NCBI RefSeq assembly: GCF_003096695.1
Contig: NZ_QEKY01000004.1
Span: 72,047 to 136,046, forward strand
Source of the DNA: Porphyromonas loveana
GTDB lineage: Bacteria; Bacteroidota; Bacteroidia; Bacteroidales; Porphyromonadaceae
Direction of reading: 5' to 3'
Length of the DNA stretch: 64,000 nucleotides
Under the pieces are notes generated by a model. That model ran no database searches. It was not told the DNA's origin and worked only from the letters and a program-made list of their open reading frames with translations. Shown here piece by piece: positions 59,509 through 64,000 of the stretch. The translations under genes and the position numbers were made by a program. Every line of letters begins with the position of its first letter. Within the stretch, counting starts at the first letter, position 1.

Positions 59509-59900
59509 TTATTTGATCCAAGTATTAACTATTTCGCCGATGTACATGGTGTGGATGCCTAATCCCCTTCTCGTATATCTGCTTGACCTCCGGTGTGAGG
59601 AGGGTAGCGTCGAACGGCGATTTATAGATGATGCGACATTCGATGGCGAGAGATTGGCTTCCTCGAATATCGGGTTGCCCAGCTCTGTGAATGAGGGTGT
59701 AAGCCCCGCCTTACTTATCTTGTCTTTGTCGTCTCGTCCCGAATGTGATCCGATATATTGCAAGGCTGAGCATTTCTCCTCGGGAAAGCCGGTTACGGTG
59801 AAATACTCGTTGCGCTCCATGAAGCTGTGGGTGTAGCGACTAGAGGATACATAGACGGTGACCACGGGGTGTCCCCAGAGTTCTCCGAGGCTAATTCTGC
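59509..59900 (-). pseudogene. Flavin reductase-like protein, truncated and frameshifted
   Basis: The segment from GHPVVTVYVSSSRYTHSF to GLTPSFTELGNPIFEEA matches the flavin reductase (DIM6/NTAB) family of Bacteroidetes. The next 30 codons are out of frame: another frame reads SLAIECRIIYKSPFDATLLT then PEVKQIYEKG, the expected family sequence. The original frame returns at GLGIHTMYIGEIVNTWIK. So one single-base deletion near 59655 and one single-base insertion near 59565 compensate. The N-terminal third (FMN-binding start) is missing, replaced by DNA overlapping the livM end. It is not functional unless these indels are sequencing errors, and the missing N-terminus would remain. Confidence 0.8.
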
Positions 59901-60781
59901 TCTTGTTGAGTTGCTTTGCGGGCTGTACCCAGAGAAACAAGGTTTCCTCCCCGGTACACGACCAATATCAAGGCAATACCGTAAAAGATTTGTCGCATAT
60001 TGGCTGCAATGGCGGAGGGCATGCCCACGAAACGGAGTGCTTCGGGGAGTAACACCAAGAATGCTGCGGCATAGAAAATCCCTTTCAGGTGCCGCATGCC
60101 GCCGATAATGACGATACTCATGATAAAAATGGATTCATCGACAGTGAAGCTTGTGGGGTCGATGTAGCTGATGTAGTGGGCATAAAGCACGCCCGCAATG
60201 GAGGCAAGCATACCACTAATGACGAAGGAGACGACTTTGGCTTCTGCCACATTCTTGCCCAAACTCTGGGTGTATATTTCGTCCTCGCTTAATGCTCGTA
60301 GTACTCTGCCAAAAGGAGAGCGGGTGATATTGGATAGCAACCACCATACTGCCCCTGCAAAAAAAGCAGATAGCAATAAGAACGAGAGTTTGCTTTCGAT
60401 CGGCAAACCGAAGATTGAAAAGGCGGGAATCCCGGGAATGCCTAATGGGCCATTCGTTACACTCTGCCAATTGTTCATAATGGAGAACATCACCACCTGT
60501 ATGCCGAGGGTGATGATAATATAGTAGTCGTCAACCGTTTTGACAGCTACCTTCGAGACGATATAGGCGATTATGCCCGATAGCAACAGGGCGGCGAGCA
60601 TATTGAGCAACGGAGGAGTGCCGAAGTGTACCGACAGCAACGCCGTTGTGTAAGCACCTATGCCATAAAAGCCGGCATGTGCCAACGAAACCTGTCCGCT
60701 ATACCCTGCTACCAAGCTGAGCGACTGAGCGAGGATGGTATAAATGCAGATGAGGATGAGGAGGTGAAGGATATATTCCAT
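59891..60781 (-). CDS. livM: LivM-type branched-chain amino acid ABC permease
   Basis: 296 residues with about eight membrane segments. Family motifs are SLVAGYSGQVSLAHAGFYGI near 22-41, the RALSEDEIYTQSLGKNVAEA then KVVSFVISGMLASIAGVLYA loop near 185, and SIVIIGGMRHLKGIFYAAAF near 245. It pairs with a LivH permease. The substrate may be branched-chain amino acids, amides or urea. No LivG/LivF ATPases follow: the next DNA is a broken flavin reductase gene. Confidence 0.88.
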   Translation of the reverse strand: MEYILHLLILICIYTILAQSLSLVAGYSGQVSLAHAGFYGIGAYTTALLSVHFGTPPLLNMLAALLLSGIIAYIVSKVAVKTVDDYYIIITLGIQVVMFSIMNNWQSVTNGPLGIPGIPAFSIFGLPIESKLSFLLLSAFFAGAVWWLLSNITRSPFGRVLRALSEDEIYTQSLGKNVAEAKVVSFVISGMLASIAGVLYAHYISYIDPTSFTVDESIFIMSIVIIGGMRHLKGIFYAAAFLVLLPEALRFVGMPSAIAANMRQIFYGIALILVVYRGGNLVSLGTARKATQQEQN

Positions 60782-60822
60782 AAGGGACGAATTTTGCTAA
60801 TTAGGAGAGTGGGAGCAAGAGG

Positions 60823-60891
60823 ACACGAATTACACGAATTAGCACTAAGGTGAGACAGAGAGCGGACACGAATTGCACGAATTAACACGAA
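60823..60891. repeat. Left arm of the inverted repeat flanking the GxxExxY gene
   Basis: ACACGAATT and GCACGAATTA blocks with GGTGAGACAGAGAGCGG between them. Positions 60841-60893 match 61337-61389 in inverse orientation with 4 mismatches in 53. Confidence 0.85.
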
Positions 60892-60947
60892 AGAGAGGGT
60901 AGCACATAGATGCATTTAAGGACGAATATATGGATTTTGAGGATAAG

Positions 60948-61319
60948 TCATAGGACTATTCTTTGGGATTTGAGGGAGTCCTCTCCGAAATTGACCAATA
61001 GGCCTAAGTGTAGGCCGCTTGCTGCGAGGTAGTTGAACGTTTGCTTGACGTGGCTTTGTGTCAGGCACTCCACGGCCTTAGCTTCCAAAATGATCGTGTC
61101 GAACAATACAAAGTCAGCCACATAGAAATGCGGTAGCTTAACACCTTTATAGAGCACATCATATCTTCTTTCGCGTTCAAAAGGAATCTTGAGTCCATTG
61201 AATTCTATCTCCAATGCATCCTTATAGACCACCTCATTAAAGCCACGTCCCAAATTCCTGTGCACCTCCATACAAGCCCCCACTATCTTGTAAGCCTCTT
61301 TCTCATACCACAATCCCAT
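60948..61319 (-). CDS. GxxExxY family protein
   Basis: 123 residues. LWYEKEAYKIVGACMEVHRN followed by LGRGFNEVVYKDAL contains the naming motif (GFNEVVY). DFVLFDTIILEAKAVECLTQ, QTFNYLAASGLHLGLLVNFG and the C-terminal RIVL are the usual core. The ELxxVK-like segment resembles PD-(D/E)XK nuclease folds, so a nuclease-like activity is possible but unproven. I start at 61319 because residues before it are encoded by the repeat arm. It interrupts the liv operon between livH and livM and is flanked by inverted repeats, which suggests insertion as a unit. Confidence 0.82.
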   Translation of the reverse strand: MGLWYEKEAYKIVGACMEVHRNLGRGFNEVVYKDALEIEFNGLKIPFERERRYDVLYKGVKLPHFYVADFVLFDTIILEAKAVECLTQSHVKQTFNYLAASGLHLGLLVNFGEDSLKSQRIVL

Positions 61320-61336
61320 CTCTCTAATCCCCCTCC

Positions 61337-61440
61337 TTCGTGCTAATTCGTGCAATTCGTGTCCGCTCTCTGCCTCACCTTTGTGCTAATTCGTGTCTGT
61401 TATCTGTCTCACCTTAGTGTTAATTTGTGAAATTAGTGTC
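61337..61440. repeat. Right arm of the inverted repeat, with a second degenerate unit
   Basis: 61337-61397 is the inverse of the left arm. 61398-61440 repeats the pattern again in decayed form (TATCTGTCTCACCTTAGTG, TTAATTTGTGAAATTAGTG). Confidence 0.85.
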
Positions 61441-61445
61441 TGGCT

Positions 61446-62324
61446 TTAGATGTCAGCCTTCTTCACACCCTGCCCACTAAATCCATACGGCCTAAAATAC
61501 AGGAATGCGATCAGAATAATGTATGCAGTGGCATTCATCCACTTACTATCCAAATAGTACGCCGCGAGGTGCTGAGCCGTAGCCAGTAGCAGGCAGCCGA
61601 GCAGCAGGTATCGCATCTTGCCCATCCCCCCGATAATCATCGCCACCACTGCATATAGCAGCCAGTTAAAACCCATCGTCGGCGTCATATCCGTATCGGC
61701 AGCTATAAGAATCCCTGCACATGCCGCCAGCCCCGACCCGATGGCGAAGCTCCATGCCACGGCTTTGTTCTTGGAGATGCCAAAGATTGTACTTAGCTCC
61801 GGATTGGACGACACTGCCTTTATCTGCTGACCAATATTCGTTTTCTCCATGAAAAGCCAACTCCCCAATAATAATACGGCACTCGCCACAATGGTAATAA
61901 TCTGTACATCGGTGATATATGCTCCTAAGAACTCATGCCCTTGTTTTACTTCCCACGTGCGAAAACTGAGCGTGCTATCACCCCATACGATAGAGACGAT
62001 ATTCTGCAATACCACATACAGCCCCAGTGAGGCTATCATCATTTGCCAACTTTCTATCTTACGTTTTTGTAAGGGCTTGTACACAAACTGATTGACTGCA
62101 AGCATTAGTAATACCCCCACCACTACTGACAACGGCACTGCTCCCCATAGCGGAACCCCCATTCCAATCCCCAACCAGTAGGCTATATAAGCTCCTAAGG
62201 CAATTGTGATGGCATGTGTAAGGTGGAAAAAATAAATAGGTCTATACACCAAGATAAAAGATTCAGCAACTGCAAAATTGAGGATTGTTGAAAAAGATAT
62301 ATTGAGGAGGAATTGAGGTGTCAT
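61446..62324 (-). CDS. livH: LivH-type branched-chain amino acid ABC permease
   Basis: 292 residues with about eight membrane segments. YRPIYFFHLTHAITIALGAY near 27-46, MMIASLGLYVVLQNIVSIVW, the ISKNKAVAWSFAIGSGLAAC segment, and YAVVAMIIGGMGKMRYLLLG near 230 are typical of LivH. It lies 7 bp after the binding-protein gene. With LivM it forms the membrane channel. The ATPases are not encoded nearby. Confidence 0.88.
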   Translation of the reverse strand: MTPQFLLNISFSTILNFAVAESFILVYRPIYFFHLTHAITIALGAYIAYWLGIGMGVPLWGAVPLSVVVGVLLMLAVNQFVYKPLQKRKIESWQMMIASLGLYVVLQNIVSIVWGDSTLSFRTWEVKQGHEFLGAYITDVQIITIVASAVLLLGSWLFMEKTNIGQQIKAVSSNPELSTIFGISKNKAVAWSFAIGSGLAACAGILIAADTDMTPTMGFNWLLYAVVAMIIGGMGKMRYLLLGCLLLATAQHLAAYYLDSKWMNATAYIILIAFLYFRPYGFSGQGVKKADI

Positions 62325-62331
62325 TGTTGTG

Positions 62332-63441
62332 TTATATTTTTATAAAATGTCCATTATTTATAGTGTATAAATCAACTTTTTTATTTTGTATAATCCCATT
62401 AGAATCAAAAGAAACAGTGCCTGAAAGTGTTTCGAATTTCTCTGAATATAATGCTTGCTTGACAGCATTTACATCATTGCCGAATTTTTGAATTAGACTA
62501 TGGAGAATAATAGTTGCTTCAAAGCCATTTATGGCGTAAATTGTGGGGCGTTCATGATATTTTTTTTTGTACCTGTTCTCGAAATCAATATACTGTTGAT
62601 TGGTTTCGTCTGTACTTTCACTTGCTATTATCATATTGTTGACCAGTTCTCCTCCATTCTTTATAAAATCATCTGTTTTTAATGAAGATATTCCAATCCA
62701 TATGGGTGTGAAGTTGAGAGACTCAGATTGCTTAATAAAATTGATCGATTGTTCTGTTGGGGTTATTAACAATACGGCTTTAGGGTTTAACTTTTTTAGT
62801 TTGATAAGCTCCGTTCGGAAGTCTTTGCTATTTGGATCAATCAAAGTTTTTGATAAAATTTGTGCGTGATTGTTCTTGTTGGCACTCGAAAAAGCTTCGA
62901 TATATGGCATTCCTGCTTCGTTGTTATGTGCAACGATAGCAATTGATGTTATCCCGAGTTTTTCCAAATTGTTGGAAATGGCTTCAACTTCTTTTATGCC
63001 TAATACTCGATTGCTGAATACAAATTCACTAGTTTCTTTCATGTTCGGTGAAGAGGCTATTGTTGAAAATAGCAGTGTTTTTGTTGAATTAGCTTTGGGA
63101 GATAAAGACATTACACTAGAACTATTGCAGCCACATATCACCATTTTTGTTTTGCTAGTAGAGGTGATTCTTTCGAAGGCATTAATCGCTTTATTGACAT
63201 TGCTTTGTCCATCTTCAAAATGGATTTCAAAATTAGGATCTTTTTCTTTTATCTTCTCAGAGGCAATTGCCACCCCCTTTTGAACCCATTGGCCATATTC
63301 TGCAATGGCTCCAGTTTGATCGCAAATAACATCAATCGTTACTTTTTCTATCTTGTTTGCTTTTGGATAGAAAATCACCATTATTGCAATGAGTAAGATA
63401 AAAGCAGATAGAGCGAGCGATATAAAATTGTTTTTTTTCAT
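62332..63441 (-). CDS. Periplasmic ligand-binding protein of a Liv-type ABC transporter
   Basis: 369 residues. An N-terminal hydrophobic segment (FISLALSAFILLIAIMVIFY) acts as signal or anchor. The Peripla_BP_6 fold follows: IDVICDQTGAIAEYGQWVQK near 35-54, VICGCNSSSVMSLSPKAN, LLITPTEQSINFIKQS, and a long C-terminal part. It probably binds a small ligand, classically a branched-chain amino acid or amide, though the ligand pocket is not readable. Codon use is more A/T-rich than the rest of the window. It lies 13 bp after the SPASM-protein stop, indicating co-transcription. Confidence 0.85.
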   Translation of the reverse strand: MKKNNFISLALSAFILLIAIMVIFYPKANKIEKVTIDVICDQTGAIAEYGQWVQKGVAIASEKIKEKDPNFEIHFEDGQSNVNKAINAFERITSTSKTKMVICGCNSSSVMSLSPKANSTKTLLFSTIASSPNMKETSEFVFSNRVLGIKEVEAISNNLEKLGITSIAIVAHNNEAGMPYIEAFSSANKNNHAQILSKTLIDPNSKDFRTELIKLKKLNPKAVLLITPTEQSINFIKQSESLNFTPIWIGISSLKTDDFIKNGGELVNNMIIASESTDETNQQYIDFENRYKKKYHERPTIYAINGFEATIILHSLIQKFGNDVNAVKQALYSEKFETLSGTVSFDSNGIIQNKKVDLYTINNGHFIKI

Positions 63442-63454
63442 TTGATTTCTACTT

Positions 63455-64000
63455 TTATAGGCATTCGGTTCTGGCTATTTTCTTGTTGAATATTGTATAT
63501 TCATCTTTTCTGTCAATTCCAATGCAGTCAAAGATGTCAAAGACGCCATTTTTTTGATTTATCATGATTTTCTTGTTTTTTATTATTGGAGAATGTTCTT
63601 CAAGGGGGAGGGAGGGGGTTCGTGCAAGAAAGTCTTCAAAGATGAAACGACCTAATATCACAGGGATTGTGCCCTTTGATAGATTATTCCATATGCGAGC
63701 TGTTGCATCTTTAAGTAGAAGGTGCTTCATTTTGCAGAGCCAATTATCTGCAGTATTTAAAGACCCTGTTTGTGTGAGATTTCTCATTAAACATCCTCCA
63801 GAACATAAATATTTGTTTTTACATCCATGGCATGGGCTCATTTGGATAATGGAGTGTTGATTTAATTTGGTTTTATTAGTTGTCCAAATAGATGTTGTAT
63901 TGTTCGTTTTCCAATTTCCAATGATGAATTCTTTGTAAGGGCTGTCAAAGCTTTGTACGCGGTAGCATGTGGTTATTGATCCATCTGGGTTATATACGCA
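63455..64000 (-). CDS. Radical SAM/SPASM-domain maturase, C-terminal part (runs off the window)
   Basis: At least 181 residues; the frame stays open to the window edge, so the N-terminal radical SAM barrel lies outside. The visible part opens CVYNPDGSITTCYRVQSFDS, the first SPASM cysteine block, and continues HGCKNKYLCSGGCLMRNL, the second, with another cysteine at NWLCKM. These are the auxiliary 4Fe-4S cluster ligands of SPASM-domain enzymes, which modify ribosomal peptides (RiPPs) or proteins. The ATG at 63841 is only an internal methionine. The last 100 residues are not assignable. The substrate peptide and the AdoMet-binding CxxxCxxC motif should be looked for just upstream. Confidence 0.85.
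   Translation of the reverse strand, partial: CVYNPDGSITTCYRVQSFDSPYKEFIIGNWKTNNTTSIWTTNKTKLNQHSIIQMSPCHGCKNKYLCSGGCLMRNLTQTGSLNTADNWLCKMKHLLLKDATARIWNNLSKGTIPVILGRFIFEDFLARTPSLPLEEHSPIIKNKKIMINQKNGVFDIFDCIGIDRKDEYTIFNKKIARTECL

Follow-up and report, generated by a model that had tools for sequence, protein, structure and literature searches.

Four described systems offer points of comparison for the locus discussed here, a Liv-type importer operon with a radical SAM/SPASM enzyme inside it, found at the end of a 64,000-nucleotide (nt) stretch of Porphyromonas loveana DNA (contig NZ_QEKY01000004.1, positions 72,047 to 136,046; hereafter the window). The first is the Liv importer itself (LivKHMGF/HAAT), all five parts of which are present at the window locus with the expected Pfam domains. 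Yet, the window proteins score far below the NCBIfam equivalog and subfamily cut-offs (170 of 362 for LivG, 70 of 379 for LivH and 52 of 477 for the solute-binding protein, SBP), and an interchangeable cassette of enzyme, SBP and membrane protein lies inside the operon. The radical SAM/SPASM peptide maturases (PapB and the CteB/SCIFF type) share the SAM motif, the SPASM cysteines and the domain order with the window enzyme, whereas the window operon lacks a precursor peptide, a peptidase and an exporter, and the sister loci hold unrelated enzymes in the same slot. In the Lsr/AI-2 system, a self-made signal is recovered through an SBP and an ABC importer dedicated to it, while its synthase is encoded outside the operon and is not exchanged; the window locus would resemble it in principle, i.e. 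in the re-uptake of a self-made molecule, but here a synthase-like enzyme and an SBP appear to be swapped as pairs. Finally, type I restriction-modification systems are carried on mobile DNA and keep the same machine while exchanging the part that confers specificity. They share these traits, as well as small genes inserted in the operon, with the loci described below, the difference being that the constant component here is a transporter and that an enzyme is exchanged together with an SBP.

Compared with these systems, the window locus and its relatives may constitute a modular, horizontally mobile small-molecule system, in which a constant Liv importer is combined with a cassette encoding a synthase and its cognate SBP. 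The arguments for and against this proposal seem to us about evenly balanced.

The part of the locus beyond position 64,000 was read in L003, a 19-kb sequence around the window end whose positions equal window positions minus 55953. With this part added the operon is complete, in the order livG-livF-(membrane protein, radical SAM enzyme, SBP)-livH-livM:

59891..60781, minus strand: livM, permease subunit 2, part of the frame (BPD_transp_2, 140.8 bits)
61446..62324, minus strand: livH, permease subunit 1, part of the frame (BPD_transp_2, 95.8 bits, cut-off 26.8)
62332..63441, minus strand: SBP of the Liv type (HAAT) with a hydrophobic anchor at the N-terminus, belonging to the exchangeable cassette (Peripla_BP_6, 133.9 bits, cut-off 31.7)
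63455..64000, minus strand, continuing to L003 8947 or 8962: radical SAM/SPASM enzyme, of which the window holds the 3′ part, cassette (Radical_SAM 62.6 bits, SPASM 22.3)
L003 8883-10376: membrane protein of 497 amino acids (aa), cassette, upstream of the radical SAM gene
L003 10378-11094: livF, ABC ATPase of the LivG/LivF kind, frame
L003 11091-11837: livG, ABC ATPase of the LivG/LivF kind, frame

One operon therefore holds all parts of a HAAT importer: two BPD_transp_2 permeases, two ABC ATPases and one Peripla_BP_6 SBP. Among the matches listed (best 25 of 190 for LivG, 25 of 188 for LivF), the ATPases stay below the curated NCBIfam cut-offs for Liv and Urt proteins. Every junction from livG to livH is an overlap or a gap of at most 13 nt; 13 bp separate the stop codon of the radical SAM gene from the SBP start, and the radical SAM gene overlaps the end of the gene for the 497-aa membrane protein. 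The earlier note on this DNA, made from the window's letters, had placed the 3′ end of a radical SAM/SPASM gene 13 bp before genes for an SBP and LivH, and the gene coordinates bear this out. It had also supposed that the rest of the locus lies beyond 64,000, where a CxxxCxxC motif and LivG/LivF ATPases should be sought: the 5′ part of the enzyme with the motif CNLNCQYC, the membrane protein and, upstream, two such ATPases were all read in L003. The enzyme gene forms part of an operon-like series that also encodes an entire Liv-type importer, and this pairing is as unusual as the note had held it to be. The hydrophobic segment of the SBP spans residues 6-24. The 497-aa protein has two hydrophobic segments and no match in Pfam or the PDB; its middle part looks TPR-like by eye.

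The cassette stands out by its base composition. Positions 62332-64000 have 34.2% G+C, while same-size windows over positions 1-62331 average 50.1% (standard deviation 3.6, minimum 38.6), in agreement with the A/T-richness noticed earlier. Read to its full extent, the low-GC block comprises exactly the SBP, the radical SAM enzyme and the 497-aa membrane protein (33-36% G+C), flanked by livF/livG at 47-50% and livH/livM at 47-49%, giving 34.9% for the cassette vs 48.2% for the frame. The same relationship recurs in related loci: in all 29 loci measured, cassette G+C lies below frame G+C, by 7.8 points on average, and in 24 of 27 it also lies below that of the flanks. At third codon positions (GC3), values fall short of those of livG/F for the SBP in 27 of 28 loci and for the enzyme or partner in 25 of 28. 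Since cassette G+C is below frame G+C across the loci measured, the A/T-rich end of the window is a cassette footprint. These 29 of 41 loci are those in which, by a scripted rule, livF and livH bracket the cassette on one strand, 1-9 kb apart; L059 (9.2 kb) was excluded. In 24 of the 29 bracketed cassettes, a simple hydropathy rule predicts membrane segments in one or more additional proteins. By eye, the cytosolic parts of the membrane partners in L038, L039, L050, L053, L058 and L088 look alike (pattern I-SPT ... FICL), although these cassettes carry different enzymes, and they possibly share one fold; aligned to L039, they are 14-16% identical, except for L038 with 32%.

Within the family, LivH has relatives in 3 of the 37 other genomes (69% identity) and the SBP has one match in 37, at 25%. 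In these three Porphyromonadaceae relatives, the livG-livF-X-livH-livM frame is kept (livM is 78% identical to that of the window in three related loci) and the contents differ: by Pfam, the cassette of P. crevioricanis (L037) encodes an EgtD-like methyltransferase and a small membrane protein besides the SBP, and those of G006 and P. canoris (L038, L039) combine the SBP with an AlaRS-like protein and a larger membrane protein. A LivH-alignment scan of named genomes returned 22 loci, 20 of which were kept as relatives (50-72% identity), all from Bacteroidota bar two Fibrimonadaceae-type metagenome-assembled genomes (MAGs) and one Treponema MAG; L063 (33% LivH identity) and L064 (25%) have another context and were dropped. 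With the genome of the window included, sampling recovered the LivH family from 4 of 393 genomes at the level of the order, from 12 of 395 at that of the phylum and from 4 of 395 at that of the class, the samples overlapping one another. Its distribution is broad but sparse. Among plasmids, LivM has 16 matching records at an E-value of 1e-40, from Azospirillum and Ochrobactrum, all below 60% identity; viral contigs gave none. The collection comprises 41 distinct loci, mostly from Bacteroidota, L046 and L047 being duplicates of L039 and L037.

A cassette enzyme recognised by Pfam is present in 32 of the 41 loci. The enzymes fall into 12 kinds but 11 main Pfam families, because radical SAM and B12-radical SAM enzymes share PF04055:

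Radical SAM: the window, L054, L085 (with a TIR protein), L087, L089, L093, L099
B12-radical SAM: L045, L056, L059, L092 (B12 domain of L092 below the cut-off)
EgtD-like methyltransferase: L037, L051, L052, L066
AlaRS-like: L038, L039, L053, L058
Polyprenyl synthetase: L044, L049, L067
Other methyltransferases: L048, L061, L090
RelA/SpoT: L065, L095
Glyoxalase: L050
Glycos_transf_3 (phosphoribosyltransferase, PRTase): L060
Aminotransferase: L086
Class-II core 2b (second class-II synthetase): L088
GGDEF: L091

Four further loci (L055, L094, L096, L098) were placed by similarity, and five (L043, L057, L062, L097 and L100) carry no assigned enzyme, L097 and L100 being the most distant loci. Pfam was run on chosen cassette open reading frames (ORFs), with none from L062, L094, L096, L097 and L100. 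The CX3CX2C motif is intact in 12 of 14 radical SAM proteins, and the GGDEF motif, the residues of AlaRS motifs 2 and 3 and the aminotransferase lysine motif are seen in the respective sequences. Two other cassette proteins were inspected by eye: a 304-aa membrane protein of L086 (8735-9649) with nine hydrophobic segments and UbiA-like Asp-rich motifs (no Pfam match, E 0.01), and a 761-aa protein of L098 (8323-10608) with a metallophosphoesterase-like start.

Further evidence for the proposal comes from comparing how the SBP, the enzyme and the importer change between loci. This test covered 36 of the 38 labelled loci, L088 (short SBP frame) and L095 (short SBP and LivH frames) being dropped, and its controls were LivM, LivF and LivG of the same loci rather than ordinary Liv operons. 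Over the 36 loci, identity between SBPs correlates hardly at all with LivH identity (r=0.19), in contrast to LivM (0.86), LivF (0.82) and LivG (0.84). A run on 24 loci gave r=0.13 for the SBP, and the three controls ranged over 0.82-0.90 across both runs. Instead, SBPs from pairs of loci with the same enzyme are 6.8 points more alike than LivH predicts, a value reached in 0 of 5000 permutations (36 loci), and the 24-locus set gives the same association of SBP identity with the enzyme label (0 of 20000 permutations). No such effect of the enzyme label is found in the LivM, LivF and LivG controls (p 0.97, 0.59 and 0.96). Judged by sequence identity, the SBP tracks the enzyme and not the permease.

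Closely related frames make the exchange directly visible. Of the 35 pairs whose LivH proteins share 80% identity or more, 31 combine SBPs of at most 40% identity with differing enzyme labels; the remaining four pairs share cassette genes, including L059/L061, which are labelled differently and have several cassette genes in common. P. crevioricanis and P. canoris are 93.2% identical over 4391 nt ending 18 nt into the SBP gene, followed by about 3 kb that do not match and then by 92.4% identity over 6257 nt from about 90-130 nt into livH. L038 and L039, which carry the same cassette type, align at 92% over 3640 nt through livG, livF, the SBP gene and the AlaRS-like gene, and again from livH. 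The alignments show the cassette parts to be exchanged together in a frame that stays, and P. crevioricanis and P. canoris to carry what reads as one mobilizable element with different cassettes of about 3 kb. In both L037 and L039, two integrase-like genes precede livG and primase- and relaxase-like genes follow livM (by eye).

As to function, the constant importer LivG, LivF, LivH and LivM frames a low-GC cassette of an SBP, an enzyme and usually a membrane-anchored partner. Most likely, a particular small molecule is produced or modified by the enzyme, and the SBP of the cassette binds this compound (or its direct precursor) on the outer side of the inner membrane, so that LivHMGF can take it up again; the membrane partner may export or sense it. 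The link between enzyme and SBP would then be chemical, the SBP ligand being the product or substrate of the enzyme. Because SPASM enzymes are involved and the SBP belongs to the HAAT family, the compound of the window locus is probably amino-acid-like or derived from a short peptide. As the cassettes are mobile, low in G+C, hypervariable and sometimes located beside defence-type genes, their purpose would seem to be private cell-to-cell signalling or a function in conflict rather than feeding.

Feeding nevertheless needs to be weighed. Here, each cassette would import a particular amino-acid-like nutrient and its enzyme would start breakdown or salvage. The SBPs are ordinary HAAT proteins whose nearest PDB entries are named branched-chain amino-acid binders, and the aminotransferase, PRTase and glyoxalase cassettes could well be catabolic. 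RelA/SpoT, GGDEF, TIR, AlaRS-like, EgtD-like and polyprenyl synthetase proteins, by contrast, are not known as catabolic, and genes for feeding would not normally show low G+C, a patchy spread or cassette replacement within a mobile element. We consider feeding unlikely.

Several observations weigh against the proposed synthase-SBP system. A catabolic pair would give the same linkage of SBP and enzyme, and the ligand, the product and the export route are all putative. The RelA/SpoT, GGDEF and TIR cassettes fit poorly with simple import of an own product, in the case of RelA/SpoT and GGDEF because nucleotides are, to our knowledge, not usual HAAT ligands. Loci with the same label can have unlike SBPs: those of EgtD pairs are 29-34% alike, those of the window and L054 (both radical SAM) 21%, and those of L056 and L059 (both B12-radical SAM, with LivH at 79%) 29%, while same-label pairs with distant LivH often reach only about 30-35%; the labels are coarse. 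Locus pairs are also non-independent, many of the 31 coming from a single gut Bacteroidales-type cluster (L053-L061). At the level of the enzymes, L092 and L098 lack CX3CX2C, and the first Asp-rich motif is absent from two of the three polyprenyl synthetases. The frame, too, varies, in that livG follows livM in four loci (L094, L096, L097, L100) and the script found no livG or livF in L092 and L093. A Pfam scan of eight proteins of the window operon recognised no regulator. Lastly, no second copy of the window's own radical SAM/membrane-protein cassette was found, so that its exchange is deduced from the pattern across the family and from its G+C content.

The enzyme that drew attention to the locus is a genuine radical SAM/SPASM protein, as the earlier note had read from its 3′ part. 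Starting at L003 8947 (ATG) or 8962 (TTG), it carries the SAM motif CNLNCQYC (CX3CX2C) and the SPASM cluster CHGCKNKYLCSGGC, and it exceeds the cut-offs of Radical_SAM (29.5 bits), SPASM (21.5) and TIGR04085 (43.5 bits, cut-off 27). The same note went on to propose that such an enzyme would mature a ribosomally synthesized and post-translationally modified peptide (RiPP) moved by the Liv system. In favour of this, the enzyme is of the SPASM type, the nearest NCBIfam families are PapB-type maturases, and the closest PDB entry is 5wgg, a peptide maturase. Yet, among the best 25 of 69 matches, it scores below the cut-off of every named maturase, the top one being PapB with 111.1 of 340 bits. Between livG and livH there is neither a precursor-peptide gene nor room for one; unlinked precursors elsewhere in the genome were not searched for. 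The note had suggested looking for a short precursor gene beyond 64,000, where the 1 kb upstream of livG holds small ORFs only (44-101 aa). The one ORF followed up, a repetitive one at L003 12277-12582, was rejected, as it belongs to an intergenic repeat with 26 genome matches including itself. This repeat (L003 12150-12640) has a periodicity of 42 nt and reads as a repetitive 101-aa ORF. Moreover, most sister loci lack a radical SAM enzyme, their slots holding non-maturases, and the permeases are of the importer type. A RiPP pathway at this locus is therefore very improbable.

The ancestry of the enzyme may still lie in that direction. No ortholog turned up among the 37 further genomes of the family, where the best match shares 41% over 119 aa, and no close relative among the named genomes. 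Sampling of the phylum (394 genomes) gave matches at an E-value of 1e-15 or better in 9 other genomes, the nearest being 31% identical (G799). In all six surroundings fetched from these nine genomes, LivH, LivM and an SBP were not seen around the match; three of the six contain an ABC ATPase with a weak LivF match. L127, a distant relative, adjoins short genes that look by eye like leader-peptide genes, which also speaks for the RiPP reading and suggests that the window enzyme may have been recruited from a leader-peptide-type kind of enzyme.

A third alternative is immunity, in which the importer and SBP would sense a cue from outside or one made during infection, and the enzyme and membrane protein would form the effector arm of a defence system. 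The cassettes include TIR, RelA/SpoT and GGDEF domains, and the RelA/SpoT protein of L065 matches the PADLOC candidate family PDC-S33 (32.3 bits over the RelA region). Among 110 flanking genes (the nearest ones, from 30 loci) are four with Fic, four with phage integrase domains, two D12 methyltransferases and one AIPR, and several match PADLOC candidate families; Fic alone has a control, with 56 matches in 18 whole genomes (about three per genome). RhuM genes, as well as genes that look toxin-antitoxin-like by eye, occur as insertions at the livH-livM junction. On the other side, 7 of 10 proteins submitted to PADLOC had no match, and none of the window's five had a specific one: LivG matched many ATPases, and the match of the radical SAM enzyme to pVip (E about 1e-13) was confined to the SAM core that both share, its score against the curated viperin family NF038283 being 47.9 of 180. 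The window locus adjoins housekeeping genes, lying between the rsmD group and rimP-nusA-infB (names assigned from the sequences). Immunity predicts that SBP and effector vary independently, whereas they were observed to change together. Like feeding, we hold it to be improbable.

For the window locus itself, no integrase was seen among the L003 ORFs around it, and it sits at a synteny break: four relatives keep the rsmD group without rimP-nusA-infB or liv beside it (19 kb read). In the window, a further gene with an inverted repeat around it separates livH from livM:

60832..60899, no strand assigned: left arm of a 68-nt inverted repeat around the GxxExxY gene (arms 93% complementary)
60948..61355, minus strand: GxxExxY gene inserted between livH and livM, flanked by the inverted repeats (TIGR04256, 133.8 bits, cut-off 35)
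61329..61396, no strand assigned: right arm of the 68-nt inverted repeat (arms 93% complementary)

This junction is an insertion hotspot. In 28 of the 38 distinct loci with both genes, livH and livM overlap or lie at most 12 nt apart, and the other 10 carry inserts of 485-1760 nt (window 60822-61440, L055, L057, L059, L062, L086, L089, L092, L093, L098). The inserted genes are GxxExxY in the window and L057 and, by Pfam, RhuM in L055; by eye, they are BRO-like (L059, L062), MNT/HEPN-like (L092), of a four-helix-bundle type (L093), PIN-like (L098) and methyltransferase-like (L089), while the L086 insert is of no recognised kind. In L067, too, a GxxExxY gene follows livH. Elsewhere at the window locus, a CACGAATT-type repeat recurs upstream of livG (L003 11914-12067), and AATTCGTGNAATTNGTGT has four exact sites genome-wide, all of them at this locus. 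No RNA families or tRNAs were found in L003.

The component families of these loci are known. As far as our searches go, which covered the open-access literature (subscription papers and preprints being outside their scope), the exchange of an enzyme-plus-SBP cassette within an importer operon is undescribed. We tentatively raise the idea, towards which we lean less than to the synthase-SBP system as such and which we think somewhat more likely wrong than right, that the loci form an unrecognised class of mobile, privately coded systems for chemical communication or alarm, in which the swap of a 3-5 kb cassette brings in new pairs of synthase and receptor. If enzyme and SBP are indeed matched, the SBP could be used as a bait for the product of the enzyme, making each locus a key to a new small molecule, and with 12 kinds of enzyme occupying the same slot, many as yet unknown compounds would be expected. 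If true, the proposal would amount to a new way for bacteria to swap chemical specificities on mobile DNA.

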